Positions 5,162 to 51,082 of a DNA stretch of 64,000 nucleotides are shown piece after piece. Numbering within the stretch: the stretch's first letter is position 1; the number at the start of each line of letters is the position of its first letter. The position numbers and the translations under genes are program-made. The notes under the pieces were generated by a model, which saw only the letters and a list, made by a program, of their open reading frames with translations, was not told the DNA's origin and searched no databases. This DNA is from Desulforamulus hydrothermalis Lam5 = DSM 18033 (GTDB lineage: Bacteria; Bacillota; Desulfotomaculia; Desulfotomaculales; Desulfotomaculaceae), in NCBI RefSeq assembly GCF_000315365.1, contig NZ_CAOS01000003.1:496001-560000 (forward strand), read 5' to 3'.

Positions 5162-8100
5162 AAATAGCAGATTTTTCGGTAGACCGGCCGGTGGCCATCT
5201 CTATGCTTATCATTGCCCTTATTTTTTTGGGTTTGTTTTCCCTCCCCCGCTTGGCGGTGGATTTATACCCGGAAATGGAATTGCCTATCGCTGTTATTGT
5301 AACCAGTTATGAAGGTGCTGCCCCGGCAGAAGTGGAAAAGTTGGTTACCAAACCCATTGAGGCTGCGGTTGCCACCACCGGCAACATAAAAGAAATTCGT
5401 TCCCGTTCCCAAAACGGCATCTCTCTGGTAATTGTGCAGTTTAACTGGGGCACCAATATGGACAATGCCGCCATTGAATTGCGGGAAAAAATAGATTATG
5501 TCAAAGGCGCGCTGCCCGGCGAGGTAAAAACCCCCCGGGTAATGAAACTGGACCCCAATCAGGCGCCGATTCTTTCTTTTTCCATGACCGGCAGCGATGT
5601 GGTGAAGTTAAAGAAAATTGCTGAGGATACCGTCCAATCCCGTCTGGAGCGCATTGACGGTGTTGCCTCCGTTAGTATTAGCGGTGGCAAAAGCCGGGAA
5701 ATAAAAGTTATCCTGGATCCCGCTAAAATGGAAACCTATGGCCTCAGTGTCAATCAGGTGATGCAGGCGCTGGCCGGCGATAATATCTCAGGCACCGCCG
5801 GCGTAGTGGAACGGGGTACTCAAGAGACCGCCATTCGGGTGACGGGAGAATATACCAGCCTGGCGCAAATTAAGCAAATACGGGTTCCGTTGCCAGGTCA
5901 GGGCGGCTCGCTGGCACTTGGTGACTTGGCCGCCGTGGAGGATTCCTTTAAGAAAGAAAGCCGTTTCGCCTATGTGGATGGCCAGCCCTCCCTGGGCCTG
6001 GATGTCATGAAATCCACCGGCGCCAACACCGTTCAGGTGGCCAAGGAGGTGCTGCAGGAAGTGGCAGCACTGAACAAGACTCTGCCGGACGGAGTTAAAA
6101 TCACCACTGTGGTGGATATGTCCAAATTTATTCAGCAGTCTATAGATAATGTAATTTACCACGGGCTGGTGGGCGGTATACTGGCTGTAATTATCCTCTA
6201 TTTGTTTTTACGCAGCCTGCGCAGCACATTGGTGGTGGCCCTGGTAATGCCCATCTCCATTATTGCTACCTTTACCCTGATGTATTTCGGCCATCAGACC
6301 ATTAACATGCTGTCTCTGGGCGGTTTGGCACTGGGCTTGGGCTCCCTGGTGGATTTTTCGGTGGTGGTGTTGGAAAGCATCTACCGCTACCGCCAGCAGG
6401 GATATGATGTTATACAGGCTGCCAAACTGGGCACCGCCGAAGTAGCCAACGCCGTTACCGCATCTGCCGGCGCCCAGGTGGTGGTATTTCTGCCCATTGT
6501 GTTTGTGGAAGGTTTAGCCGGCATATTATTTAAGCCCATGGCTCTCACAGTAAGTTTCTCGCACATTGCCGCCCTTTTTGCGGCCCTGACCCTGGTTCCC
6601 ATGATGTCCTCCCGGCTGCTGCAAAAAGTTGCCCCGCCGGATGAAAATTTGCCCCCGGGCCGTACCAAAAACCCGGTCCTGCTGTTTGGTCGTTTCATGC
6701 ACCGGTTAAACCTGCATTACGGCAGCTTGCTGCGGTGGGCCCTGGGCAACCGCAAAAAAGTGGTGGGTTTTACAGCGTTGCTGCTGCTGCTTAGTGTCGC
6801 AGCTACTCCCTTAATTGGCACAGAATTTATCCCCACCATGGATCAGGGGGAAATTACCGTCAAGATAGACATGCCCGCCGGCACTAAGGTTGCCGAAACC
6901 GCCCGGGTAGCCGCCGACCTGGAAAAATTGGCCCGCTCGCAAGTTAAAGAGATCGAGCGTATCTTTACCACGGTTGGCTCCGGCGGCCAGTTATCCTTCC
7001 TGGGCGTAGGGTCGGGCGACCAGGCCACCCTGCAGATAAAATTAAAACCCCTGGCCCAACGGGATATTTCTACCGAACAAGCGGTGGAAAAACTGCGCCG
7101 GGCTGTGCAAGATATCCCCGGTGCTGATATCACCGTCTCACTGGCTGACAATTCCGGCAGTCCCAGCAGCAAACCGGTGGACATAGCTATCCGGGGCGAT
7201 GATTTAACCGTACTCAACCAGTTGGGCGACCTGCTGGCGGAAGTTGTTAAGTCGGTACCCGGCACCCGCAACGTGACCAACTCGTTATCCGAAGCCACCC
7301 CGGAGGTGCAGATTATGGTTGACAGGGAACAGGCCGCCCGCTACGGCCTGTCCGCCGGCCAGGTTCTGGCAGCCGTCAGCACTTCCTTTGACGGCAGAGT
7401 GGTCAGCCGTATGCGCACCGGTGAAGATGAAGTGGATGTGCGCCTGCTTTTCCCGGAGGATAGCAGCAAGGATGCAGATGCTCTGGCCAACCTGACGCTA
7501 GTTGCTCCCACCGGTGCCCGGGTGCCGGTGTCAGCTGTAGCCAGGATTACAACCCAGCATGCCCCAACGGAAATTATCCGGTCTTCGCAAAGCCGGGAAG
7601 TTCGCATTACAGCCGACATCTCCGGCCGGGATACCGGCAGTGTCAACAAAGAAATTGCAGCCGCTTTAAACAAATTGGCTTTGCCCGAGGGTTATACCAT
7701 CCACACCGGCGGCCAAGCCAAAGACATGGCCGATTCCTTTAAGAGCCTGGCCATCGCCTTAATTCTCTCGGTGGTGCTGGTATTTATGGTGATGGCAGCC
7801 CAGTTTGAATCACTGTTTCAGCCTTTCATCATTATGTTTTCCCTGCCGCCTACATTTATCGGGGTGGTATTGGGCCTGGGCATCACCGGCCATCACCTCA
7901 GCGTCCCGGCTTTAATCGGCGCCATTATGCTGATCGGTATTGTGGTTAACAACGCCATTGTGCTGGTTGATTATATTAATACCCTGCGCAAGCGCGGCTA
8001 CGAGCGGGATCAGGCTGTCTTAGCCGCCGGCCCGGTGCGCCTGCGGCCTATTTTAATGACTGCCCTCACCACCGTGCTGGCCCTGCTGCCCCTGGCCTTT

Positions 8101-34328: not shown

Positions 34329-35648
34329 ATGGCAGAACGTGAAGCGTGGTCAAGTAAAACCGGCTTTATTCTGGCCAGTGTAGGTGCCGCCATGGGGCTG
34401 GGGTCCATCTGGATGTTTCCCTGGCGTATTGGCGCTTACGGCGGCGGCGCTTTTCTGGTACCCTATTTCCTGTTCGTTTTTGTGCTGGGGGTAACCGGCC
34501 TGATGGGCGAATTTGCCTTCGGCCGCAGCCAGCAAAAGGGGGCTGTGTCAGCCTTTGAAAACGTCTTCCGGGAAAAGGGAAACGCCGGGCTGGGCCGTAC
34601 CCTGGGCATCATCCCCGTCCTGGGCGTGAGCGGTGTGTTTACCTTTTATCTCATTGTTTGCGGCTGGATTTTGAAATTTTTTTGGGTAGGCCGTAATGGG
34701 GCCTTTGGCCGGCATTGACCCGGGTCCTTTATTTCGGCGGTTTTGCCGGTCAAGCCGAAAGCATTTTCTGGCATGCTTTGGCACTGATACTCACGCTGGC
34801 TATTGTGATTAAAGGGGTTTCCGGCGGCATAGAGGCTTCCAACAAAATCATGATGCCCGGTTTGTTTATTATCCTGCTGATTTTGCTGGTGCGTTCTCTT
34901 ACCCTGGAAGGGGCCGCCAAAAGCATCCGGTTTTTTAACCCTGCCCGATTGGGCCAAAACTGGGCCAATCCCGTTACCTGGGTGCAAGCCCTGGGGCCAG
35001 GCCTTTTTCACAGTTTCTCTGGGCGGTGCGGCCATGCTGGTGTACGGCAGTTACCTGCGGGAAACGGAAGATATTCCCTCTTCCGCTGTGCACACAGCTT
35101 TCTGGACCACCGTTGCTTCGCTGCTGGCGGCCTTTGTGACCATTCCCTCGGCCTTTGCCTTCGGTCAGGATCCCCAGGCCGGCCCGCCGCTGCTGTTTAT
35201 CACTATCCCTTATATTTTTAAAACCATGACCGGCGGTTATATCTTTGGGGCCCTGTTCTTTTTGGCAGTGGTTTTTGCCGCCATATCTTCTGCCATCAAC
35301 CTGATGGAAGTACCGGTGGAAGCCATTATGGACCGCTTTAACATGAGCCGCATTAAGGCTTCGGTGCTGGTGGCGGTGCTGGGCTTTTTGGTGGGCATAC
35401 CGCTGGATATTAACTTAAACTTGTTCGGCAAGTTTGCCGACCTGGTAACCATATATATTGTACCTTTCGGGGCGGTGCTGGCATCCATTGTGTTCTTCTG
35501 GGTGTACGGCGTGGAACGGGCCCGTGCCCAGGTTAATAAAGGAGCCGTTAAGCCCCTGGGCCCCTGGTGGGGTTACCTGGCCAAGTATGTATTTACCGGT
35601 GTAGCCCTGTTTATTCTGGTCATGGGTATAGTCATGGGCGGCATTTAA
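34329..35648 (+). pseudogene. tnaT: Na+-dependent tryptophan symporter (SNF/NSS family), frameshifted
   Basis: The 1.32-kb region has the length (about 440 codons) and content of an NSS transporter: the N-terminal SSKTGFILASVGAAMGLGS, the middle GVSGGIEASNKIMMPG and a C-terminal part to residue GIVMGGI. Reading requires three frame changes: near 34689 (WV-A after removing one G), near 34729 (GP-YFGGFAG after removing one T) and near 34998 (ALGQAFFTVSLGGAAM after removing one G). Each is a single extra base in a short homopolymer. As written no functional transporter can be made. Position after tnaA fits TnaT. Either true decay or sequence error. Confidence 0.85.
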
Positions 35649-35837: not shown

Positions 35838-37931
35838 TCGAGTAGAGTAACGCCGTAGTAATTTGCTACGGCGTTATCCCTCTCACAGAACCGTACGTAC
35901 GGGCCTCGTATACGGCTCCTGATAAACCTCAGTCATTTCTCCCAGAAATGATGCAAAATGCCGACACTATACTTAGTCAGGTCAATTAACCCCATTTCGT
36001 CAAACCACTTGTTGGGTAGGGCCATATTTATTAGCGGACTAGCCGAGTTTCTCCATCTTTGCATGGATATTTTCTCAAATGTCCCCTTATAACCCCGCCT
36101 TCTTAGTGCTTTGTGAAGTTGCTTCCAACTTTTCCATTCTCTCATTTGCTTCATTCGTAGTCGTCGCCTTATCCACTCCATGAGTTGCTCCACTATCTTC
36201 TTGCAGTTTGCCACTCTGAAGTAGTTGCTCCACCCTCTTAGCACTGGATTTAGCCTTCTTATCATTTCTTCAATGTTCATCCCGTGGTTTCTCGGTGTTA
36301 GTTTCTTGATTTTGTCTTTTATACTCTTGATCTTTTTAGGATTTATTGAGATAAACTTTGATCTAATGATAAAGCCTAGATAGGCAACTCCTTTACTCAC
36401 ATTTGTAATGTGTGTCTTCTCCCTGTTGACTGTTAATTTTAATTCGCCTTCAAGGATTTCTGTGGCTATCCGTTTATATTGCTTTGCTTCTTTGAGGGTT
36501 TTGCCGAATATGAGAATGTCATCGGCATAGCGAACGATGCGAATTCCTTTATTCTTCATGGCCTGATCAAAATGGTCTAGATATATATTAGTAAGCAACG
36601 GGGATATTACCCCGCCTTGCGGGCTTCCTAAATCTGTTCCTTCCCAGGCACCATCTTTCATTACTCCTGCAGTGAGGAATTTGCTTATCAGTTTTAGCAC
36701 TTTTCCATCACTGACTTTTCGGGCTACCCCTTTTAGTATTAGTTCATGATCCAGTCGGTCAAAGCATTTCGATAGATCCATGTCTACTACGTGTTCCAGC
36801 CCATATTTGTTAATAAACATCTCTGCCTTGGCTACTGCCTGATGGCAGGATCTATTTGGTCGGTACCCGTAGCTTGAGGGGTGAAAGTCTGGTTCGAATA
36901 TCGGTTGCAAAATGTTGAGTAATGCCTGTTGGACTACCCGGTCCTTTACAGTGGGTATACCTAGCGGCCGCTTACTTCCGTCCGGCTTTGGTATTTCCAC
37001 TCTCAGTACCGGTTGTGGTTCGTATGTGCCGGTTTTCAGTTCATAATGAAGTTGGCTTAGCCGTTCCTCTAGGTTCTCACCGTAGGCTTTCACGGTCACC
37101 CCGTCTGCTCCGGGGGCTCCTTTGTTTGCTCTCACGGCTTTGTATGCCTTTTCGAGGTTTTCAATTCGATAAACCTTGTCTATCAGGCTGTACCATTTCT
37201 TCATTATTTCACCTACTTTCGCTATGCTTCCTTGGTCTCTCCCAATTGTGTGACAGTCTCTTCTTGCAATTTCCCGGCGTTTCTAGCTCTGGGCAATCTT
37301 ACCTTGGATTTATTGCAATACTCTGTCTGGGCGGACGCTAAACCCAGCGAGTTCGTCACTCCCGATTCTAGCGTTCCTCTTGGCATTTCAGCCTTGATTG
37401 TCTTCCCTCTCACAGTTGCCAGATCCGTTAGTTGCATACTTTGGTTTATCTTCGTCCCTTCGCAGATCATAATGGCTTTTGGCTCATTATGGCTCATTGC
37501 AATTAGATGCAATGTCCCCTCAGTTTTGTCCTCAGGTCTGTTACCAGCCTTCATTGGCTGTGGGTTTATCGCTACTACGGACTCATCTGCCACCCAACAC
37601 CACGTCTTCTCTCCCTTGCGTTTCCGCTTGTTTGAGCTTACCTGCAGGGCAGGATGATATTGGGCTTCCCCGGTTAAGTTTGCTTGCCTGAACTTGAACG
37701 CATCCGTCCTAACCTTTCGAGTTATCCAGCTTTTGGGCTTTCCCATATATTGCAAGGTTACCCACTCGATAGGCCAACATCGGTTCGCTTTCGCTATGTT
37801 CCAAGTTCCCTCTTCAGCTTCCTTCAGACCCCACCGTTACCAGTGACGCCCTTGCCTACGAGTTGTCTTCCCGCTGGTTAGGTGACAGGGTTTCTTTCAA
37901 CCCATCGGCTCGGCAAACATGCCGGGCGAAC
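35838..37931 (-). mobile_element. Group II intron, class C
   Basis: On the minus strand the element starts at about 37931 with GTTCGCCCGGC, directly after a rho-independent terminator hairpin, the classic class-C target. It holds a reverse transcriptase/maturase gene (35933-37204) and ends with domain V (about 35880-35918; GAGCCGTAT ... ACGGTTCTGTGAGAG) and a domain VI hairpin (about 35848-35876; AACGCCGTAG / CTACGGCGTT). The 3' end near 35838 is approximate. The 37205-37931 stretch is the structured domains I-III and carries no separate gene. Confidence 0.88.
35933..37204 (-). CDS. ltrA: Group II intron reverse transcriptase/maturase
   Basis: This 423-residue protein contains the RT domain (blocks including PKPDGSKRPLGIPTVKDR, the catalytic YADD in RYADDILIF, and GSPQGGVISPLLTN) and the maturase X domain (RGWSNYFRVANCKKIVEQL). 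There is no C-terminal endonuclease domain, as expected for class C. It helps the intron fold and splice and copies it into new sites. Length is normal and no frameshift is seen, so the intron may still be active. Confidence 0.95.
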   Translation of the reverse strand: MKKWYSLIDKVYRIENLEKAYKAVRANKGAPGADGVTVKAYGENLEERLSQLHYELKTGTYEPQPVLRVEIPKPDGSKRPLGIPTVKDRVVQQALLNILQPIFEPDFHPSSYGYRPNRSCHQAVAKAEMFINKYGLEHVVDMDLSKCFDRLDHELILKGVARKVSDGKVLKLISKFLTAGVMKDGAWEGTDLGSPQGGVISPLLTNIYLDHFDQAMKNKGIRIVRYADDILIFGKTLKEAKQYKRIATEILEGELKLTVNREKTHITNVSKGVAYLGFIIRSKFISINPKKIKSIKDKIKKLTPRNHGMNIEEMIRRLNPVLRGWSNYFRVANCKKIVEQLMEWIRRRLRMKQMREWKSWKQLHKALRRRGYKGTFEKISMQRWRNSASPLINMALPNKWFDEMGLIDLTKYSVGILHHFWEK

Positions 37932-38225: not shown

Positions 38226-39904
38226 TCACAACCCCCAGACGTCCTGCAGGCGCTCGGCCAACCAGCGGCGCAGGCGCTCGGCCGCCCCGGGACCGGGTAC
38301 CAGGCCAAGTTCGCCGCCCGTAGTGCGGCTGCGCCGGGCCGGGGGGTAGTAGTCATCCGGATAGACGGCCCAGGCCTCGCGCACAGGAAAGTCCCACTCA
38401 TCTTCGAACTGGTGGGGGGAGGTGCGGCTGCGGATAGTGTCGGTGTAGTATTGCTTTTCCTGCAGCTTACGCGGGTCGTGGCTGAAAGTAGCGTCCAAGG
38501 TAATGATCTCGGGCGTAGGCACACCGGGCGGGTAATATTCTATGGCCACGTCCGGACAGTCTTTGCACTGCCAGCTGCCAGCAATACGGTAGGGATATGC
38601 GCCCAGCAGCGCAGCCGGCGAATAATCCAGGCGGGGGTAATGGCGGGCGTACCAGACCAGCAGGTGCCCTCCCCTTTTGGCCTGCAGTTCCACCACACCG
38701 TTTTCCTTCAGGTTGTAATTGAAGCTTTCTTCATCCCCCACCAGTTGCGCCCCGTTTTTGACCAGCGGTACAAAGCCCAGTTCAACCAGTGCACGTACCA
38801 CACTCATAGCCACCCAGTATTCGTACAGGGTATTGATACTGCGGGTATGTACGGGCAGTGCCGCCTCATCCACCGCAATCACCTGGTCGGCCAGACGCAG
38901 GCCGGACTTAAGTCGCCGGGCCAGGCGGCGGGCCTGGCGGTAGAGCGGGTGCAACGTCTGGACGTCCCGGCTCTGGCACAGGGTGAGGACGGGCAAATAG
39001 CGCAAGAAGCTGCTCTGCATCAGGCCATCCATGGTGTTTTCCACTCCGGCCAGATACTGCACCCCACGCCGCGCCCGGGCAGCCTGTTCCAGCACCCACT
39101 CCCGAAATCCGCCCTTAAGCTCGGCTGCCCGGCGGGTCTGATGGGCGATCTCGGCAGCCAGCTGTTTCTTTAAGAGCGTGGCTTCCCGGCGCATTTGCCC
39201 CACCAGCTGAAGCAAAAAGCGGTTGTCCGGCGTGTCGTAGGAGACCACATTTTCCTCCACCGGCAGCAGGGCGGGTAAAAGCACCCGGTCGACCGGCCCA
39301 TCCAGCCACTGCCATTGCCCGGTTCGGCGGGCAGCTTGGTCCAGCATGTGTAGCGAAACACGCCCGGCCCTATGCAGCGGCTTGTGCACCGTAATCCGCT
39401 GTAAAGCGCGTTGCGGGTCGCGCTCAATGCGGCGGAAAAGGGGCAAAAACTCATCCACCACCCGGCGTAACACCTCAAAGCGGGCCGCGGCCGCACCGGG
39501 CGGCAAGTGACGGACCAGTTCCTGCAGATCCCGACCCATACCGTAAAAATCCAGCAAAGAAATATTTTGCACCGTCAGCTCATTGCGCATAAAATTGATT
39601 TGCTGAACCGTGAACTGCCTAACTAGAAAACGCACGGTGAAAACTTTATCCTTCAGCAGTTCCCCGCCGTAGGCCAGGGCCAGCTGGCTTTCGCCCAGGA
39701 ACTTTTGCCCGGCGTACTGCTGTACCTGTTCGCTCTCCGGACGCAACACACCGGGAGTGGCCCGGAAAAAGCGCAGCGGATACCCTCCCAGCCCGGGGTC
39801 GTAGTCCAAGAGCAGGTGTAGTTGGCTGGGATCCAATTCGCCTCCGGGTAGACAATCATAAGTGTGTTCAGGTCGGCCGCTTCAATTTCCGGCGGTTGCT
39901 CCAT
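38226..39904 (-). pseudogene. DUF2357 / McrC-like PD-(D/E)XK nuclease subunit, frameshifted near the N-terminus
   Basis: The main frame (38226-39836) encodes 536 residues with an N-terminal DUF2357 region and a C-terminal PD-(D/E)XK-like domain (CPDVAIEYY, then ITLDATFS, then KLQEKQYYTDT). The true start, at ATG 39904 with GGAG in front, is in another frame (MEQPPEIEAADLNTLMIVYP); adding one G near 39845 joins it to GGELDPSQLHLLLDYD. So as written the gene is broken by a 1-base deletion. The expected (D/E)xK lysine is Thr in LDAT, which may also abolish cutting. It is the nuclease partner of the McrB-like ATPase upstream. Confidence 0.75.
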
Positions 39905-39979
39905 ATCCACTCCGGTTACCGCTGGCCCAGCAGGTAGACCTGTACTTCCTGCAGCGCCGCCGTCAGCCAGTGCGGCAGC

Positions 39980-41851
39980 TCAGATCTGGCCAAGGATGAA
40001 TTCCTCCTCCCTCACCCGCTCATTCAGGCGCTCCACATATTCGCGGCACTGCGGAAAGGCCGTTTCCTCGGCGCCGGGCAGCTTTTCGTCCTCGAAAAAG
40101 CCCAACAGCTGCGCCACCATGTCGGTGTCCGCCCGGCGACTACGGGCCACCTGCAGTTTGGCAAGCACCTTCTGCTTGATCTGGTAGTCCAGGGCAGTGT
40201 AAAAGCCAAAGGCAGCGCTGGTCAGGGCATAGTCCACCCAGCGGATGATCTCGGTGGCCGTGCGGTAACCGAACTGCTGGTCGGCGGCGCGTAAAATGTT
40301 GTTGATACGGCTCAAATAGTCTACCAGCAGGTGGGCTGATTCTTTATTGACCAGGGGCGGCTGCCAGTATTTAAACAATTCTCCCAGGGACTTTAAATCA
40401 ATTTCCTCCAGTTTGATAAAGTTGGAGCGATCCAGCACCTTGTCGCTAAAGGTGTGGGTGGTCTCGTCAATATTCACCGTGCCCGTGATGGACAGATTAG
40501 GCGGTACAGTCACCTCCCGGGGAAAGCGGGGATCCTCCACCGGGTGGTCGTAAAAGCGGATGCACCGCATTTCAGGCGGCAGCTCCATCTTGCTCAAAAA
40601 GTCGGAAAAGTAGTACTCCACCCGAGCTAGGTTCATCTCGTCCAGCAACACCATGTACTGGCGGGGTTGGCGGCTTTGCTGCTTCGCCAGCTTGCATTCC
40701 CGCTGCGCCGCCAGCAGGAACTCGCTGAAGGGCGTGGGTACAAAGGAATTTTGCAAAATGTTGTAGGCACCCAGCAGGCTCTCATTGCTGGTCCAATCGG
40801 GACGCACAGCCACGGGTAAAAGCTCGGCACCGGTAGCCCGGGCATAGGTGAGTACCAGTCGGGTTTTGCCACCACCCGAAATGCCGGCCAGAATAACAAA
40901 GGGTTTGGTCTTTAAACTAATGTGGTAGCGTTTAATAAGGCCGTCGGAATAATACAGACCGGCCGCCCGGGCTTCATCCTGCACCCTAGCCACCACCTCC
41001 TGCAGGGAGCGCTGTTCTTCCTCCAGCACCCTGCCCTGCACCTGAATAGCGGCCGGCGGCGCGACAGACACCACCCCGCCCGCTGTCTTTCCGCCAGTGG
41101 CCAGGCCAGGCGAGCCCCCTTTACCCGTTCGGGCGGCTAATGAACCCGCTTTGGTGCTACCGGAGGCCACGGCCGACCCGACAGACGCACACGCCATGTC
41201 CAGGCCGGTGGGAGTGTCGAGAGCCAGCTGCTCCAGCAGTTCGCGCAGTTTAAGCAGAATTTTCTCCCGCTCTTGGCGCAGGCCGGGCTCCAGATTCATA
41301 CGGGCAAAGACCTCACTGTACATGTCAATTAATATACCCAGGCCGGTGGCCACATAGTTGCGATTAACCCGATGGCAGACACCCCGGCTGCCTTCGGTGT
41401 GGTGCCAGAGAAAATCGTTGTCCTGGCGCGGGTCGGGGAAGCGCAGGGCCCAGCCTTCCAGGGGAGTGAAGGTGTATTCCCAGTCGTCGCCGCTGTAGCC
41501 TACCAGATACCTGTCCACCTGGCCTACCACATATAAGCCGGTAAGGATGTTGCGCCGCCCGCTGCTGGTATAGAAAAAGACCAGCGGGTTTTGCCCCTGC
41601 TTGCAGGCTTGGTACAGCTCAGATACATATCCATCAACATCCACATCACGTCCCCGCTTGTAAAAGGAGGGATGGGCCACATCAAACAGACCCATGTCGT
41701 AGCATTGCTTGATCTGACGGGCACAGTAGTTGGCCCGGAAGTTGGCTGTGGCACCGCAGTCGTGCTTGCGCGGGTTGTCACAGATATTGCCGTCGTAGGC
41801 GCGGTTGTGATTGTTCACTTTCATGATAAGGCAGTTTTCCACCGAGATCAT
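39980..41851 (-). CDS. McrB-like AAA+ ATPase with unrecognised N-terminal domain
   Basis: Motor subunit of a modification-dependent (type IV, McrBC-like) restriction pair. The 623-residue protein has a Cys/His-bearing N-terminal domain (about 1-190) that I cannot name, a low-complexity Gly/Ala/Ser linker, and a McrB-type AAA+ domain: Walker A GISGGGKTR, Walker B MVLLDEMNLAR, and the McrB-type segment GTVNIDETTHTFSDKVLDRSN. The N-terminal domain is where such systems read modified DNA. ATG at 41851 follows AAAGGAG. The end is probably truncated: removing one G near 39988 extends the product by RSELPHWLTAALQEVQVYLL and stops at 39916, just before the DUF2357 start. Confidence 0.8.
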   Translation of the reverse strand: MISVENCLIMKVNNHNRAYDGNICDNPRKHDCGATANFRANYCARQIKQCYDMGLFDVAHPSFYKRGRDVDVDGYVSELYQACKQGQNPLVFFYTSSGRRNILTGLYVVGQVDRYLVGYSGDDWEYTFTPLEGWALRFPDPRQDNDFLWHHTEGSRGVCHRVNRNYVATGLGILIDMYSEVFARMNLEPGLRQEREKILLKLRELLEQLALDTPTGLDMACASVGSAVASGSTKAGSLAARTGKGGSPGLATGGKTAGGVVSVAPPAAIQVQGRVLEEEQRSLQEVVARVQDEARAAGLYYSDGLIKRYHISLKTKPFVILAGISGGGKTRLVLTYARATGAELLPVAVRPDWTSNESLLGAYNILQNSFVPTPFSEFLLAAQRECKLAKQQSRQPRQYMVLLDEMNLARVEYYFSDFLSKMELPPEMRCIRFYDHPVEDPRFPREVTVPPNLSITGTVNIDETTHTFSDKVLDRSNFIKLEEIDLKSLGELFKYWQPPLVNKESAHLLVDYLSRINNILRAADQQFGYRTATEIIRWVDYALTSAAFGFYTALDYQIKQKVLAKLQVARSRRADTDMVAQLLGFFEDEKLPGAEETAFPQCREYVERLNERVREEEFILGQI

Positions 41852-42097
41852 AACAGATGGCTCCTTTCCGGGCGACGCCCGCCGGGTTTTTAGCACAAAG
41901 CATTAAGGCATATATGGTTCTACTGCAAAAAGAGGCTTTTTTTCTTCTCATTTTCCTTTTGCAAAAATTGCTTTTCCAGTAATATTATCGTTAATTTTTT
42001 CAATATAATAGTTGAATTTTTTCTCTGTATGGCCGACAAATCCTTTGGATTATTTGTTGTAAATGCTCAAAGGTATAAAAATTATTAATAATTACTG

Positions 42098-43027: not shown

Positions 43028-44515
43028 ATGAATAACAACTTATTGAAACCAATTGTTGAATTAAGTTATTTAAACGCTCAAAATGTTGACCGTTATCGTT
43101 GTATTATGAGATGCTTTTACGAGCGCCACCGGCGACTACAATATTGGCTGCGGCCGGAAGAAGTATACAAAGGCGTCTTATCTTACGGGTTGCTGGAAAA
43201 TTATACGATGGAACAATGCCAGCAGGACCTCAATCAGTTAGTGGAGTGGAAAAACCTTGTTCCCCAACACGATGGCGGCCGCTCTACCACTGTGGAAGAA
43301 TACTTGCGTAAAAAATTTCGTTATATGATGACACCTTACTCCGTGGAGATTGAACGACTGGTGGTAAACCTGGAGAACATCCGGGGCTACGGTGGCTCAC
43401 TGGAGCCTTCCCTTTTCGAGAGCATCGCCTTGTCACTGCAAAAAATGAAGGAACTCCCCCCGGAAATTACTCCCCAAGAAGCCCTGGCCCTGTGGGAAAA
43501 TATTTACGAAACCTTTACCAAGCTTACCGAAAACGCTGCCGACTATATTGCCAGCCTGCAGAGCAGCAAAACCGAAGAACTAATGCAAACGGAAGCCTTT
43601 TTGGCCTATAAAAATTCTGTTACCGGATACTTACAGGGTTTTGTCCAGGGCCTGCAGCGCCATGCCTATCGCATTGAAGGACTCCTCCCCCTGTTCCAGC
43701 CGGAATTTCTCAGGGATTTCTTTCATAATGTACGTGATGCTCTGGCCTCTCGCCCCCAATTGGATGAGCCGGTAACTCCGGAAGAATACATGCACCGCTT
43801 GCAGACCCAATGGCACAGCCTGAACCGTTGGTTTCTTGGTGAACCCGGCGAAAAAAGTGACGTTTATTATTTGGAGCAAACCACCAAAGATACCATTGCC
43901 CGCATTGTGCGGGCCGCCCTGCGGATTCAGGAAAGACGCCGTTCCGGCATCAGCCGGCGGCGGGAACTGGACTACCTGGGACAGTGGTTTTTCTCCCTGA
44001 CTTCCATCGAGGAGGCTCACCGACTGGCTGCCTACGCCTTTGGCCTGTACCGCTGCCGCCACTTTCAGGGAGAGGATGATAAGGATACCGAATCTACCGA
44101 TATCTCCATGTGGCAGGCCGGCCCCAACATTCGCGGTTTGCGTTCCCGCAGCCGGAAAAAAGGCCGTAGCTCCGGCCCGGACCCGGTGAAAAGCCAGCAC
44201 ACACGGCAACAAAGGGCTAAGGAAGAATACCTGGCTCAGCAGCAACGGCAGGCAGAATTGCTGCAAAAATTTCTGGCCCAGGGGACTGTAACCATTTCCG
44301 ATTTAGACACTGTCCCCGCTGCCACCAGGCAAGTGCTGCTTAGCTGGATCGGCCTGTGTCTGGCCAATAAGTCCAGGCAAATCCGCACACCGGACGGCAT
44401 CGAAATCAGCCTCCTACTGCCGGATCACCGACAGCGCACCATTTTGCACTGTGAAGACGGGGAGCTGGATATGCCCGACTATACCCTTTACTTCCGCCCA
44501 ACCGGCGACCAATAA
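43028..44515 (+). CDS. jetA: Wadjet type II subunit JetA (DUF2397, TIGR02677)
   Basis: Kleisin-like subunit of the SMC-type anti-plasmid complex. The 495-residue protein has winged-helix and long helical segments and the family C-terminus (LSWIGLCLANKSRQIRTPDG ... YTLYFRPTG). In Wadjet the JetABC complex extrudes DNA loops and hands small circular DNA to JetD for cutting (established for the system). ATG at 43028 with GAGG 9 bases upstream. First gene of a tight four-gene operon; 24 bases to jetB. Residue composition is normal and the frame is intact. Confidence 0.9.
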   Translation: MNNNLLKPIVELSYLNAQNVDRYRCIMRCFYERHRRLQYWLRPEEVYKGVLSYGLLENYTMEQCQQDLNQLVEWKNLVPQHDGGRSTTVEEYLRKKFRYMMTPYSVEIERLVVNLENIRGYGGSLEPSLFESIALSLQKMKELPPEITPQEALALWENIYETFTKLTENAADYIASLQSSKTEELMQTEAFLAYKNSVTGYLQGFVQGLQRHAYRIEGLLPLFQPEFLRDFFHNVRDALASRPQLDEPVTPEEYMHRLQTQWHSLNRWFLGEPGEKSDVYYLEQTTKDTIARIVRAALRIQERRRSGISRRRELDYLGQWFFSLTSIEEAHRLAAYAFGLYRCRHFQGEDDKDTESTDISMWQAGPNIRGLRSRSRKKGRSSGPDPVKSQHTRQQRAKEEYLAQQQRQAELLQKFLAQGTVTISDLDTVPAATRQVLLSWIGLCLANKSRQIRTPDGIEISLLLPDHRQRTILHCEDGELDMPDYTLYFRPTGDQ

Positions 44516-44539
44516 CCAGCAGAAAAGAAAGGGAAGCAC

Positions 44540-45718
44540 ATGGCCCGTATAGCCCGTAATAATCAGGAAGAAATAAAGAATTGTTTTATCGCCTTGCTCA
44601 ACCGCCCCTGGGTGACCAAGGCGGATGACCCGGAATTATACCAGAGCATTCGCAGTCATTACCAGGAGCTCAGGGACTGGTTTCAAGAATATTGCGGTTT
44701 CAGCCTGCTGTTAACGAGGCAACTGGCCAGGCTGGAGAAATTTCCCGGCCAAGCCCATGCCTGGATGGGTTTGGAATTATTCAGTGACCCATTGGACTAT
44801 ACCCTTTTTACCTATTGTCTCTGGTACCTGGAAGGTAAAAATGAAACAGACCAATTTTTGCTCACCGAAATGATTGAAGAAATCAAAAACCATTTGATCG
44901 GCTCCCAGGTATCGCTGGATTTTACCATGTACCACCACCGTCAATCCATGTATCGGGCCCTTAAACAGTTAAAGACACTTAAGGTACTGGTGGCGGTGGA
45001 CGGGGATGAAGCGGAATGGGCCCGGGTAGGTAACGACAAAAACGTTCTCTACGAGTGCTCCCCTTTATCCCGCTATGTACTCCGGCATTTTCCGCAGGAT
45101 TTGACCACCTATCAAACTCCGGCATCCCTGGGGGAATTAGCTTATCCCGATGACCAGGAAGGACAAGTTCGCCGACGCCGACACAGGGTTTACCGCAGGC
45201 TGCTGCAGGAACCGGTGGTGCACGACTGGGAATGGAGCCAGGATGAACGCTATTACGTACTGACCCAGCGACATACCATCCTGGAACACCTGTCCGCTCG
45301 CTTTGGTCTGGAAGGCCGGCGTTACCGGGAAGGATTGATCTTTTTTCACCCCGACCACTCGGCAGAAATAGAACTTTTCCCCACCGCCAAAAACATCTCC
45401 GATCTGGTATTGCTGCTGGCAGGAGAAATCCGTCGCCTGCTGAACCAGTCGGATACCGGCATTTATACAGATGAACGCGGGTGTATCCCGCTGACCCTGG
45501 CGGAGTTGGAGGGACTGCTGCTGCGCCTGAGGGAAAGACACAAATCACTATGGAGCCAGCAATTGCGTCAAGCCAAGAGCAATGAACTGGCCCAGGAAAT
45601 ACTGGCGCACTTAACCGATTGGGGTCTGGCTACGGTAAATTCAGAGCAAATAATTTTACTTAACCCGGCCCTGGGCCGTTGGAACGGAAATTATCTAACA
45701 GATGAGGATGAGGAATGA
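44540..45718 (+). CDS. jetB: Wadjet type II subunit JetB (DUF2398, TIGR02678)
   Basis: KITE-like subunit binding the kleisin JetA. The 392-residue protein has the TIGR02678 pattern: an N-terminal helical domain (LLTRQLARLEKFPG), a mid region with YTLFTYCLWYLEG, and an acidic C-terminus. It probably forms tandem winged helices. ATG at 44540 follows AAGGGAAG. Its stop codon overlaps the jetC start by 4 bases (ATGA), so it is translationally coupled to jetC. The gene is intact. Confidence 0.9.
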   Translation: MARIARNNQEEIKNCFIALLNRPWVTKADDPELYQSIRSHYQELRDWFQEYCGFSLLLTRQLARLEKFPGQAHAWMGLELFSDPLDYTLFTYCLWYLEGKNETDQFLLTEMIEEIKNHLIGSQVSLDFTMYHHRQSMYRALKQLKTLKVLVAVDGDEAEWARVGNDKNVLYECSPLSRYVLRHFPQDLTTYQTPASLGELAYPDDQEGQVRRRRHRVYRRLLQEPVVHDWEWSQDERYYVLTQRHTILEHLSARFGLEGRRYREGLIFFHPDHSAEIELFPTAKNISDLVLLLAGEIRRLLNQSDTGIYTDERGCIPLTLAELEGLLLRLRERHKSLWSQQLRQAKSNELAQEILAHLTDWGLATVNSEQIILLNPALGRWNGNYLTDEDEE

Positions 45719-48700
45719 TGCGCAACCGCTGGCAAATGAATCTGGCCGGTATTTTTAATTTCTGGTATTACACCGATGAAGTTCAGTTTAAGTTAAGCGA
45801 TGGCCGCCTGGTCCTGCGGGGGGCCAATGGTTCCGGCAAATCCGTAACCATGCAAAGCTTTTTGCCGCTGGTGCTGGACGGCAATAAACGCCCTTCCCGT
45901 TTAGATCCCTTTGGTTCCAAGGATCGCAAGATCGACTATTACCTGCTGCTGGAGCCGGATAGCGGTATTCAAGACCGGATTGGTTATCTTTATCTGGAAT
46001 TTTATCACCCGGAACAACAGCGCTACCTTACTATTGGTATTGGGCTTAGGGCCCGCCGCAATGCCAACACCGGTTTCTGGGGCTTTGCCATCACGGATAA
46101 CCGTCGCATCGGCAAAGATATTCTGCTTTATGAAAGGGACTACAGCCAAGGACAAGAGCAAAAGATCCCTCTCACCCGTTCCCGGTTGGAGGATGTCATC
46201 GGCGAAGGCGGACAAGTGGTCACCGAGCAAGGTAAATATATGGAAATGGTCAACAAACTGCTCTTTGGCTACGGCGATTTACAATCCTTCCAGGAGCTGC
46301 TGGACTTGCTGATTCAACTTCGCAGTCCAAAACTGTCCAAGGATTTCAAACCCACCACCATTTATGAAATATTAAGTAACGCCCTGCCTCCTCTGCAGGA
46401 TGATGAACTGCGCCCGCTGTCGGAAGTCATGGAGGATATGGACCAGATTAACGACCGCCTGGAGGAGGTCTGCCTGCACCGCCGGGAAGCAGAAAAACTC
46501 CAGCAGGTGTATAACCGCTACAATAAATACCTGCTCTACCACCAGTCCAGCCAACTGCTGCAGGCCAAAAGGCAGTGGGACAACCAGCAGAGCAGCACCC
46601 AGGAACTGGAGGCTAAACTGCAAGAGATCTCCCGCTCTTTACAGGAACGAAACGAGCGACTAACAGAACAATCCACCAAACTCCTGGAGGTTAATGCCCG
46701 GCACCAAGTGCTTGCTGCCTCGGAGGTGCTGGAAAAACGGCATGAACTAAACCGGCTGCGGGAGGAAAAAGAGAGAACCAACCGGCAGGCCGAACGGCTG
46801 GCCAAAAGCCTGATGTACTGGCAAGGTAAACAAAAGGAATACCGGCGGGATCAAGAGAAGTACACCGCTGAAGCGGCGGAATATACCACCAGGCAGCAGG
46901 CGACCCTGGCTGATTTAGAAGACATTGCCCGGGAATTTGATTTTTCCCGGCATGATGTGTACCACCGCCGGTGGGATCGGGATATGCCCCGGGAATTCAA
47001 TCAGTGGCACAACTGGCAGCAGGATTTGTCCGAACAGGAGCGGCAAATTAACCAAGCGCTGGAAATAGCCCGTCGGGTGGATCACAAAAAGTATGAGCGG
47101 GATCTGGCGGAGCGGGAAGTGGGTAATGCCCGTCAGCGGCGGGATACCGCTGAAGAATCCTACCGCTTTGAAGAAGAAAACTGCGACCTGGTGCAAAAAT
47201 CCTACCAAGAACAAATCTTTGCCTGGCGCAAAAATTTACTGGAACTTCATCTTAGCGATGAGGAACTACAAAAAACTCTGCACCGCCTCTCCCTGTTCCC
47301 GGAAGTCTCCTACGAATCCATCAAGGAACCAATGCTGGAGGCCTTCGACCACCGTTATTTGGATTTGCAAAAACAAAAGGTGGCACTGGAGCAACAAAGA
47401 GACCGACACCAGGAAGAACAGAATCAACTCCGGGCAGCCTGGCAGGAATGGAAAAACCATAAGGAGCCGGAACCGCCCCGTTCCGCCGCCCGGGAGCTGT
47501 CCCGCCGCCAGCGCGGCGAAGGTGCCCCCCTCTATGCACTATGCGAGTTTCGCGAAGGGGTTAGCGAAGAACTTAAAGCCTCCCTGGAAGCGGCCCTGCA
47601 GCAAAGCGGGTTACTGGATGCCTGGGTCAGCCCCCAGGGACTGGGTATCCTGGGGACTAATGAAGAGGAAATCTGGATTGCTCCTAATCCACAATTCTTT
47701 GGTTACACCCTGGCTGATTACCTGTACCCCACTCCCCCGGAGGATGGCTCGCTGAAAGCTGAAATCATTGACCAAATCCTCCGCACCATCAGCCTGGGAG
47801 ACATCAGCAGCGGGGATAATGTGGGTGCCGCCGTTAACGAGCAGGGCTATTTTCGCCTGGGAGCCCTTTGCGGCAAGGCGGCGGCCAAGGAACGGGCCGA
47901 ATTTATCGGTAAAGAAACCAGACACCGCACCCGGCTGGCCGAAATGGCCCGGCTGGAGGCGCTGATGGAACAAGAACAGCAAAATATTGATGATTGTAAC
48001 CGGCAAATCCACCGGATCGAGGAGGCACTGACCCGACTGACCCAGGAAAAATCCTGCTTCCCCGCCGGTGATGAACTGCAAGAAGCCTTCTCCAGATTGG
48101 CCCAGGCCAGGAGAGAAATGGAGTCTGCCCTGGAGGAAGAAAGACAAAAGGTGGAACTTTTCCGCCAAGCATCCCAGGCCTATCAGGAGACTGCAGCCGA
48201 ACTGCACACCTTCATGCAGGGTTGGACCATTCCTAAAAATACCGCCGGCCTGACCGCTGCCCGGGATCAACTGCAAACCTATCGCCAGCTGCTTGGTGAA
48301 CTGCATTCCCACTGGTCCAGCTACTGCATGAGCCAGGCAGCTTTAGACCGGGCCCTGGCTGGATTGGCCGAAGCAGCAGAAAAGATTGCCGAGGAAACCG
48401 ATGAACTGGCGTCCCTGCGAGAAACCTTACACCAAATTAACGCCCAAATCTCAGCCTTTGAACAAGCCCTTAAAGATTTGGGCATTGAGGATATCGACCG
48501 GCAACTAAGAGAACTGGAGCAGCAACGGGATGCATTGCAAAGGGAAATTAATGCCCTGGATAAAGAAATTCGTCAGCTAGAAAAAGAGCAGGGCATCGAG
48601 GAAAGCAGGCTGTCCGCTGCCCGGGAACTGTTAAAAGAAAAAGAAACTGCCCTTAACCAGGCTCGGCAGGCCTGGCTCTGCGAATGGAACCGGCGGTTGG

Positions 48701-49800
48701 TGGCAGATTGGTCAGAAGTCACCGTTTCCGAAGCCAACCTGCCCGGTTTATACCGTGTGGCTCAGCAGGTGCTGCAACAATATCGGGATGAAAAATACCT
48801 TCAGAAGAGCAAGGATAGCATTACCAACGACCTGTTTCTGGCCTTCCAGGAATGCCGCGGCAATCTGCACCCCTACGGACCTGAGCTGATGCTGGACGAA
48901 GAGCACCGGCGGAACCTGGTGCTGTTTATGCGGGACCGGCATAATCCCTTGCCACCCCAGGCCCTGGTACAGGAACTGAAAACCACTGAGGAAGAGCAGC
49001 GATTGCTTTTAAGCCAAAAGGACCGGGAACTGTATGAGCAGATTATCATACACAGTGTAGGGAAAGCCATTCGCTATAAAATACTGCGGGCCGAACAATG
49101 GGTGCAGCAAATGAACCGGCTGATGGAACAGCGGGATACCTCCAGCGGCCTGCGCTTACACCTCAAGTGGGAACCCAGGCCGGCCGCCAATGAAAAGGAA
49201 CTGGATACCCTCCAGCTGGTTAATTTATTAAAGAAAGACCCCCAAATGCTGCGAAATCAGGAAATAGAACAAATGATTGAACACTTTCGCTCCCGCATCA
49301 CCTGGGCCAAACAGGAGGCAGACCAGCATGATACCCTGCGCCAGTGGATTTACCGACTGCTGGATTACCGGGAGTGGTTCCGGTTTACCCTCTATTATGA
49401 AAAGGGCGAGCAGTCTCGCAGGGAACTTACCGACAGCCGTTTCAATGCCTTAAGCGGCGGTGAAAAGGCCCTGTCTATGTACATCCCATTGTTTGCCGCC
49501 ACCTATTCCCGCTACAACGACTGTCGACCGGAAGCCCCCAAAATTATTTCCCTGGACGAAGCCTTCGCCGGTGTTGATGATGAAAACATGCGGGATATGT
49601 TTGGGCTGTTAACCCAACTGGATTTTGATTACATGATGACCAGCCAGGTTCTGTGGGGTTGTTATGATACAGTACCAAAGCTGTCGGTTTATGAAATCTA
49701 CCGTCCCAAAGATGCCAGGTTTGTGACCTTGATTCAGTATTACTGGAACGGCTTCCGGCGTATGCTGGTGGATGAAAGTATGGTGGAGGAGAATGCTTGA
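45715..49800 (+). CDS. jetC: Wadjet type II subunit JetC (SMC-like ATPase, TIGR02680)
   Basis: Motor of the Wadjet complex. The 1361-residue protein has an N-terminal ATPase half (Walker A GANGSGKS, G36 to S43), a very long coiled coil (about 230-500 and 750-1100, rich in Glu/Gln/Arg/Leu) with a hinge-like globular part around 590-720, and a C-terminal ATPase half with the signature LSGGEKALS (about 1245) and Walker B KIISLDEAFAGVDD (about 1275-1288). All ATPase motifs are intact. Overlaps jetB by 4 bases and jetD by 8. Confidence 0.95.
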   Translation: MMRNRWQMNLAGIFNFWYYTDEVQFKLSDGRLVLRGANGSGKSVTMQSFLPLVLDGNKRPSRLDPFGSKDRKIDYYLLLEPDSGIQDRIGYLYLEFYHPEQQRYLTIGIGLRARRNANTGFWGFAITDNRRIGKDILLYERDYSQGQEQKIPLTRSRLEDVIGEGGQVVTEQGKYMEMVNKLLFGYGDLQSFQELLDLLIQLRSPKLSKDFKPTTIYEILSNALPPLQDDELRPLSEVMEDMDQINDRLEEVCLHRREAEKLQQVYNRYNKYLLYHQSSQLLQAKRQWDNQQSSTQELEAKLQEISRSLQERNERLTEQSTKLLEVNARHQVLAASEVLEKRHELNRLREEKERTNRQAERLAKSLMYWQGKQKEYRRDQEKYTAEAAEYTTRQQATLADLEDIAREFDFSRHDVYHRRWDRDMPREFNQWHNWQQDLSEQERQINQALEIARRVDHKKYERDLAEREVGNARQRRDTAEESYRFEEENCDLVQKSYQEQIFAWRKNLLELHLSDEELQKTLHRLSLFPEVSYESIKEPMLEAFDHRYLDLQKQKVALEQQRDRHQEEQNQLRAAWQEWKNHKEPEPPRSAARELSRRQRGEGAPLYALCEFREGVSEELKASLEAALQQSGLLDAWVSPQGLGILGTNEEEIWIAPNPQFFGYTLADYLYPTPPEDGSLKAEIIDQILRTISLGDISSGDNVGAAVNEQGYFRLGALCGKAAAKERAEFIGKETRHRTRLAEMARLEALMEQEQQNIDDCNRQIHRIEEALTRLTQEKSCFPAGDELQEAFSRLAQARREMESALEEERQKVELFRQASQAYQETAAELHTFMQGWTIPKNTAGLTAARDQLQTYRQLLGELHSHWSSYCMSQAALDRALAGLAEAAEKIAEETDELASLRETLHQINAQISAFEQALKDLGIEDIDRQLRELEQQRDALQREINALDKEIRQLEKEQGIEESRLSAARELLKEKETALNQARQAWLCEWNRRLVADWSEVTVSEANLPGLYRVAQQVLQQYRDEKYLQKSKDSITNDLFLAFQECRGNLHPYGPELMLDEEHRRNLVLFMRDRHNPLPPQALVQELKTTEEEQRLLLSQKDRELYEQIIIHSVGKAIRYKILRAEQWVQQMNRLMEQRDTSSGLRLHLKWEPRPAANEKELDTLQLVNLLKKDPQMLRNQEIEQMIEHFRSRITWAKQEADQHDTLRQWIYRLLDYREWFRFTLYYEKGEQSRRELTDSRFNALSGGEKALSMYIPLFAATYSRYNDCRPEAPKIISLDEAFAGVDDENMRDMFGLLTQLDFDYMMTSQVLWGCYDTVPKLSVYEIYRPKDARFVTLIQYYWNGFRRMLVDESMVEENA

Positions 49801-51082
49801 CTATTTGCGCCAGCCTTGTTTTGAGAAACTGTTTAACCTGGCCAGGAAAAAGATCCAATCCTTAAACGGTCTCCGGGGTACGGTTACTCTGGACAACCTT
49901 TCCCCGGTGGACCAGGACCTGATCAGCGGTTTTCTGGGCAAGAACTGTTTGGGGCGGACCAGGCTAAAAATCCCTTTGCATGAAATAGATGAGGTTCTGA
50001 AAAACAGCCCCCTGGAAATGGGACTATACCCTTTCCTGGAACTATATTTTAATGAAAGAATTCTGACCAGCCAGGAAATTTACGCAACCCGGAAATACCG
50101 TTGGTCCCGGTTTTTTGCCCAACTGCAAGAACAAGCCCAAACCCCGGTAACCCAAGACTGGTTGGCTCAACTTTGGCAAGGGACCGGCAGAGGCTACCGC
50201 ACCCTGCTGGCCCTATACCAGGATAACCCGCAGGCTGCCCTTGATGAGGCTTTCATCTGCGTAAAAGCACTGGATTACTTAGCCACCCATCCCGGTGAGA
50301 ATTTACGCATTCCTGTTTTTGCCGCCAAATTAACCGGTGACCCCCATGCCCTGGACCTGGAAAACTCGTTGGGGCGGCTACTTTATTACGGTCTGCTGCA
50401 CTTCTTGGACAAGCCGGAAACAGACTATACTGCCGAAGGAAAGCGCACCCTGTTCCGGGAGGCCGGGCTTTTGGACGATGATGTTTCATCCAATGTGCTG
50501 GCAGCCGGCCTGCGCGTATGCCAGGCTGACCCCAGGTTTACCGTTTTTGATGTGGCCAATGCCACCGGCAGCCCTTTAATTTTACCCCTGCGCTTTCTGG
50601 CAATGCCCACCCGCTGGCAACCCGGACAAAAAATTTATATGACGGAAAACCCGGCGGTATTCAGCACCATTCTGGATGTCTGCCCTGCTGCTTTCTTACC
50701 CCCAATCATCTGCGGCAGCGGCCAGCCCAGTGTGGCGGCCCTCACCCTGTTAGACCAACTTGTCCAAGCCGGATGCATTATTTGCTACAGCGGGGACTTT
50801 GACCTCAAAGGACTGGAAATTGCCATCCGCCTGGCTCAGCGCTATAAACAAAATTTTCGGCCCTGGTGTTATGATAATGAAACCTACCTGGGGGTACCCC
50901 ACGGCAAACCGGCGGCTGCCAATCAAATAAACAACCTGAGAAAGCTTGATGTCCCTTGGGACAAGCAATTGGTTCACCGCATGTCAGAGAGAAAGTTGTT
51001 CGTTTACCAGGAATCCTTTATAGATAAACTGATAAACCAATTCAACAACCGGCACCTAAAGCTCGCCATCACCAAAGAGTGA
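49793..51082 (+). CDS. jetD: Wadjet type II nuclease subunit JetD (DUF2399, TOPRIM)
   Basis: Topoisomerase VI-like nuclease that cleaves the DNA extruded by JetABC. The 429-residue protein has an N-terminal DNA-binding region and a C-terminal TOPRIM domain. The acidic residues look intact: E285 in YMTENPAVF and D335/D337 in SGDFDLKG. ATG at 49793 follows GGAGGA and overlaps the end of jetC by 8 bases. No inactivating change is seen, so the whole JetABCD set appears functional. Confidence 0.92.
   Translation: MLDYLRQPCFEKLFNLARKKIQSLNGLRGTVTLDNLSPVDQDLISGFLGKNCLGRTRLKIPLHEIDEVLKNSPLEMGLYPFLELYFNERILTSQEIYATRKYRWSRFFAQLQEQAQTPVTQDWLAQLWQGTGRGYRTLLALYQDNPQAALDEAFICVKALDYLATHPGENLRIPVFAAKLTGDPHALDLENSLGRLLYYGLLHFLDKPETDYTAEGKRTLFREAGLLDDDVSSNVLAAGLRVCQADPRFTVFDVANATGSPLILPLRFLAMPTRWQPGQKIYMTENPAVFSTILDVCPAAFLPPIICGSGQPSVAALTLLDQLVQAGCIICYSGDFDLKGLEIAIRLAQRYKQNFRPWCYDNETYLGVPHGKPAAANQINNLRKLDVPWDKQLVHRMSERKLFVYQESFIDKLINQFNNRHLKLAITKE

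Follow-up and report, generated by a model that had tools for sequence, protein, structure and literature searches.

A candidate divergent EVE/YTH-like reader domain with a conserved cysteine cluster on an NxD-type McrB-like GTPase of Desulforamulus hydrothermalis

Reader domains limit what type IV restriction and helicase-nuclease defences can see. Among the EVE fusions of defence systems that with McrB is the commonest, and YTH-McrB proteins, such as McrB of Thermococcus gammatolerans, read m6A (PMC7641849). A large branch of the McrB family, including the CoCoNuTs, is defined by a shortened NxD motif (Bell et al. 2024, PMC11090510), and the DISARM helicase DrmA has an EVE-like N-terminal domain (PMC12458937). 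The system described here is encoded in a 64,000-nucleotide stretch of the D. hydrothermalis Lam5 genome (hereafter the window).

The mcrBC locus and its carriers

The product of the gene at 41851-39980 on the reverse strand is an McrB-like AAA+ GTPase, an assignment that follows from the AAA_5 match (Pfam, E = 2e-5), the Walker A, Walker B and sensor motifs and the DUF2357 partner gene downstream (Table 1). In PADLOC the same protein matched PDC-M26A with an E-value of 1.2e-49. The GTPase signature has the shortened form NxD instead of NxxD and reads GTVNID in all three proteins found to carry the N-terminal domain discussed below.

Table 1. Features of the McrBC-like pair, in window coordinates
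Feature	Position	Strand	Basis
mcrC-like gene (DUF2357, E 1.3e-10; weak PDDEXK_7)	38226..39836	-	Pfam
mcrC 5' part, out of frame	39837..39979	-	comparison with the intact relative in L002
mcrB-like gene, 623 aa	39980..41851	-	intact ORF; AAA_5 and PADLOC PDC-M26A matches
AAA+ GTPase domain, residues 277-600	40052..41023	-	Pfam AAA_5, motifs
NxD motif / sensor motif GTVNIDE	40483-40463	-	sequence motif
Walker B LLDEMN	40648-40631	-	sequence motif
Walker A GISGGGKT	40885-40862	-	sequence motif
Ala/Gly-rich low-complexity linker, residues 191-276	41024..41281	-	sequence
N-terminal domain, residues 1-190, candidate divergent EVE/YTH-like (PUA-like) reader	41282..41851	-	homology to PDC-S68 and predicted fold of the relative
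Hairpin equivalent, residues 82-109 (ACKQGQNPLVFFYTSSGRRNILTGLYVV)	41525..41608	-	PDC-S68 alignment; weak PDC-S68/EVE alignment
Putative metal site, Cys cluster, residues 24-50 (C24, H30, C32, C43, C50)	41702..41782	-	conservation, alignment
Ribosome-binding site AAGGAG	41861..41866	-	9 nt 5' of the ATG at 41851; sequence

Homologues of the mcrB-like protein that match from end to end were found in two of the 398 genomes searched in the phylum, L002 (91% identity) and the Clostridia MAG L003 (40%; also L031), and in a further 54 genomes of this set only the GTPase half was matched. This distribution of full-length and partial matches indicates that the N-terminus is exchanged between McrB homologues, so that, as judged from the sequences, the domain is a swappable module. 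Searches at class and phylum level gave no carrier beyond these two, a rarity that in part reflects a limit of the search, as one scan of a genome collection with strict patterns recovered the L003 relative alone. Neither the viral contigs scanned with the domain or its motifs nor the phages and plasmids searched by tblastn held a copy, and weak matches in G396, G001 and G460 were rejected as further carriers, their sequences containing stops. An McrC-like gene follows the mcrB homologue in both L002 and L003; in the former its product matches DUF2357 with an E-value of 3.5e-9, and in the latter a homologous gene occupies the mcrC place but has no Pfam match.

Relative to its intact counterpart in L002, the mcrC-like gene of the window has two 1-bp deletions, at approximately 39921/39920 and 39843/39842, which put the first ~70 codons out of frame and leave the ORF with an internal TTG at 39836 as its only start. 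Further into the protein, the PD of the nuclease motif is encoded at 38555 and the D of LDATF at 38495, with Thr in place of the canonical Lys. The PD...LDATF arrangement is common to McrC of all three carriers; McrC of L099, which we assume to be active because its motif is intact, has LDSKY. The carriers' McrC may thus have its catalytic Lys at another position, or may be an inactive nuclease.

Upstream of the pair, in divergent orientation, lies a complete Wadjet type II system (JetA2, JetB2, JetC2 and JetD2; 43028-51082, forward strand), with PADLOC E-values of 1e-123 or better for the A, B and C components and 5.5e-123 for D. As the two systems adjoin, the locus forms a two-system defence spot, although the pairing is not fixed, since other genes stand upstream of mcrB in L002. 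A group II intron-type ORF for a reverse transcriptase/maturase of 423 aa and an ORF upstream of it, at 35933-37755 on the reverse strand, lie close to the 3' side of the McrBC pair. Beyond these, at 34329-35648 on the forward strand, apparent indels divide a gene for a sodium:neurotransmitter symporter-like transporter between two frames, a hint that the contig carries sequencing indels, or else pseudogenes.

The state of mcrC raises a distinct possibility, though one that we place on the doubtful side of even, that the McrBC system has decayed in this genome and has no present function. The two deletions and the lone internal start agree with decay, as does the distribution of the mcrB homologue, which was not found in eight other genomes of the genus and is therefore accessory. 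Set against this, mcrB itself is intact and preceded by a good ribosome-binding site, and because the transporter gene is frame-broken too, the lesions in mcrC could be indels of the assembly.

The GTPase domains of the three carriers group together as a clade of their own (support 0.985), separate from the remaining NxD McrBs that were found, and this placement bears on the nature of the target. The NxD motif is typical of the branch to which the CoCoNuTs belong, and for these both YTH-like domains and the targeting of RNA have been proposed (PMC11090510); the window system could similarly read modified RNA (tRNA, tmRNA, rRNA or mRNA) instead of DNA. Consistent with such a target, the gene that comes after the closest GTPases of the phylum encodes in most cases a long McrC homologue (800-880 aa) that is not of the PD-(D/E)xK type, and the McrC nuclease of the window is without the canonical Lys. 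We nevertheless regard an RNA target as unlikely: the clade separates the window GTPase from just those proteins, the partner is a short McrC of the DUF2357-PD(D/E)xK type, no HEPN, long CnuC-like or extra nuclease gene was seen beside it by reading of the ORFs, and the related domain of PDC-S68, described in the following section, sits on a RecD-like DNA helicase.

The N-terminal domain and its relative in PDC-S68

A sequence-only reading of the window had picked out a Cys/His-rich and a beta-rich motif in the first ~190 residues of the McrB-like ATPase, and had been unable to assign them to known McrB reader domains such as EVE, YTH or DUF3578. Both motifs are present as described, the former in residues 19-33 (YDGNIC...HDCG) and 41-50 (NYCARQIKQC) and the latter in residues 90-109 (LVFFYTSSGRRNILTGLYVV), and the failure to name the domain was borne out by the libraries. 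Residues 1-190 had no meaningful match in Pfam, NCBIfam, PADLOC or PHROGs, the best for the window protein being a PHROG at E 0.28. In Pfam, no match to the EVE, YTH or ASCH families was obtained for the domain and none to DUF3578 for the protein. Scans with family HMMs of the domain, like those with single sequences, returned nothing, and a PDB sequence search gave chance matches only. Nmad2, considered on account of the 'YDxG..NP' look of the motif, was set aside, Pfam giving no match.

The same reading had treated absence from all homologues as evidence against the domain; both full-length homologues carry it. Across the three copies C24, C32, C43, C50, C159, H15 and H30 are invariant, together with the motifs YDG.IC..P, NDFLW and RN.VA. 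As the domain persists in a homologue with only 34% identity at the N-terminus, its conservation marks it as real and not a chance arrangement of residues.

Outside the McrB proteins, a related domain stands at the front of PDC-S68, RecD-like helicases with a nuclease-like tail. The first pointer to this family was a very weak PADLOC match of the first 36 residues of the L002 protein (E 0.073). PDC-S68 members are 1,200-aa proteins in which an N-terminal domain is followed by a RecD-like superfamily 1 helicase (AAA_30 and UvrD_C_2; PDB match to RecD with an E-value of 4e-19) and then by a C-terminal tail that is conserved; in the window protein this helicase and tail are replaced by the McrB GTPase. 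The N-terminus follows the pattern H.S.R..WHD.GW.G.VC.NP..N..C ... PC..E.GGF ... SLVFFYAK...RRVIVGIGRV ... WE..I.HSIR...GFLLPY. The tail, for example at the end of L087, reads VRSKSEVIIAN...Y.YE..L....G...PDFTIED...G...WEH.G.L..P.YR..W..K..WY and is not recognised by Pfam; by eye (KSEVIIA...PDFT...EH) it looks like a nuclease of the Vsr or PD-(D/E)xK type. Helicases of this family with the N-terminal domain are encoded on several IMG/VR viral contigs (L084-L088, L091-L094), and the family may thus travel on phages or prophages. PDC-S68 was named in no paper of the literature searched.

The homology between the two N-terminal domains is statistical and was assessed by profile comparison. With hhalign, the three-sequence profile of the window domain scored 31.7 against the N-termini of 10 PDC-S68 members and 33.2 against 14, compared with maxima of 23.4 and 28.2 in 400 and 500 column shuffles, respectively, and 21.2 for the best of 345 chunks of unrelated real proteins (the query itself excluded). 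A second segment, window residues 81-115, scored 26.8 in the same order, so that the two-segment colinear sum reached 60.0, the highest sum among the shuffles being 39.8. Taken alone, the C-terminal part exceeded 300 of 300 shuffles. At a low threshold the alignment was colinear across the whole N-terminal domain. The PDC-S68 counterpart of residues 82-109 is the 'SLVFFY...VGIGRV' hairpin, and a weak alignment of PDC-S68 with EVE proteins extends the correspondence to the EVE hairpin 'GDLVLVYH...VGVAEV'. Moreover, the order of secondary-structure elements is alike in the AlphaFold (AF2) model of the window domain, which was made without PDC-S68 sequences, and in the PDC-S68 model: a helix, the LVFFY strand, a long strand, a strand and a long C-terminal helix.

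Convergence or chance could still account for the resemblance to PDC-S68, the domain then being an unrelated new zinc-binding fold: hhalign gives a probability of only 39%, and the model of the window domain is too poor to serve as a test. We find this quite unlikely. The score lies above all 500 shuffles and 345 decoys, which leaves the empirical controls clean, and it rises with alignment depth; the two matching segments come in the right order; and the secondary structure agrees independently.

Fold of the relative and the cysteine cluster

The AlphaFold model of the window domain itself, built from three sequences, is poor (pLDDT 44). Its structural matches were mixed, with tail-tube proteins above YTH, ASCH and VcaM4I structures and all Z-scores at or below 5; Foldseek gave no significant match for it. 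Comparison with a viral structure library gave nothing significant. The PDC-S68 domain, modelled from 11 sequences, reached a pLDDT of 70.5 and a pTM of 0.75. In the VIA-align comparison of this model with the PDB, each of the best 50 rows was an EVE, YTH or ASCH domain or the N-terminus of DrmA, with Z-scores of 4.7-7.0, although models that have no true relative commonly give Z-scores up to 7. The YTH domain of Mmi1 ranked first (Z 7.0, rmsd 3.2, 123 aligned), and other rows included PH1033 (6.8), MJECL36 (6.3), THYN1 with 5mC DNA (6.2), 2eve (6.1), VcaM4I (5.8) and DrmA (5.4), the last in agreement with the published EVE-like N-terminus of that helicase (PMC12458937). The top Foldseek matches were MJECL36, MspJI, Mmi1 and VcaM4I, with no E-value below 1e-3, and direct hhalign against EVE sequences gave no match (score 11). 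The argument for the EVE/YTH class draws on how uniform the list is, and on the fact that this superfamily is already known in fusion with McrB.

Three cysteines are invariant in 13 of the 14 PDC-S68 domains (C20, C29 and C62 in L087), and in a full-length alignment their counterparts in the window domain are C24, C32 and C50, of which C24 lies within the confident part, C32 and C50 being matched by eye and by low-confidence alignment. The stretch that bears them (residues 12-67 of L087) is of low confidence in the PDC-S68 model and unresolved between strands 1 and 2. In the remaining member, from Vibrio (L072), all three are replaced together, by D, A and W. Such a joint loss is expected for ligands of one ion and suggests that the three cysteines form a single metal site. 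The L072 protein (6001-7002), encoded on a plasmid of Vibrio fluvialis, thereby offers a natural experiment on the putative site; a qnr gene lies some hundreds of bases away from its gene.

Taken together, residues 1-190 are probably a far-diverged reader of the EVE/YTH (PUA-like) class, with the Cys cluster inserted after the first strand, that serves as the specificity module of an NxD McrBC-like system. The unrecognised reader proposed earlier therefore stands in part: the domain occupies the specificity position of McrB, has no name in the libraries, and has relatives that model as a modified-base-reader fold. It does not, however, appear to lie outside the known reader classes, EVE/YTH/ASCH being the most likely through PDC-S68, and the structural match to a characterised reader that was held to count against novelty is indirect, obtained through the PDC-S68 model only and with modest Z-scores. 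It is very unlikely that the domain instead detects a phage protein, as a zinc-bound module for protein interaction or trigger sensing. Although conservation of the Cys cluster is strong and no model resolves the ligand-binding surface, the relative's fold falls wholly within a superfamily of nucleic-acid readers, and each of the two host proteins is a nucleic-acid motor combined with a nuclease partner or tail.

For an EVE/YTH-class reader the mode of action may be drawn by analogy with McrBC. We infer that the window domain shares the fold of its relative, binds a metal ion, and would capture nucleic acid that carries a foreign modification. The McrB GTPase would assemble as a ring, McrC, through its DUF2357 part, would stimulate GTP hydrolysis, and translocation would bring the target to the nuclease-fold domain of McrC, where cleavage might follow.

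Implications and comparison with known systems

In a broader and more speculative reading, which we rate as doubtful, the domain founds a branch of the EVE/YTH class that is stabilised by the Cys cluster, is carried by two unrelated defence motors (NxD McrB GTPases and RecD-like helicase-nucleases) and reads a modification or structure beyond those of the described readers. If two defence families share a reader branch that is missing from Pfam, the repertoire of such defences would widen, and the three cysteines together with SLVFFY...GIGRV would provide a sequence handle for finding more members. A testable function is also offered for the N-terminal domain of PDC-S68, which as a candidate family has no assigned mechanism.

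PDC-S68 is the system with the homologous N-terminal domain, with the elements H..[YW].G.[IV]C..P..[HN]..C, SLVFFY...GIGRV, WE... and GF.LPY in common order. It differs in that the domain, of ~300 aa compared with 190 aa in the window protein, is fused to a superfamily 1 helicase, and in that no McrC is present. DISARM DrmA similarly carries an EVE-like reader before its motor, but that motor is a helicase and no Cys cluster is shown at the corresponding position. The CoCoNuTs have the NxD motif in common with the window system, whose GTPase domain is 40-49% identical to those of CoCoNuT-like GTPases in the phylum; its separate GTPase clade, its N-terminus and its short McrC set it apart. In E. 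coli McrB the N-terminal domain (DUF3578/ADAM) has the same position and the same expected role, with an NxxD motif in place of NxD and a DUF3578 assignment that the window protein does not share. Compared with the EVE-McrB and YTH-McrB type IV restriction systems, the window domain has no detectable sequence similarity to EVE, and differs further by its conserved Cys cluster and NxD GTPase, yet the overall plan is alike: a PUA-like reader, here by predicted fold, stands before an McrB GTPase that has McrC as its partner, and the apparent swappability of the N-terminal module is as expected of McrB specificity domains generally.
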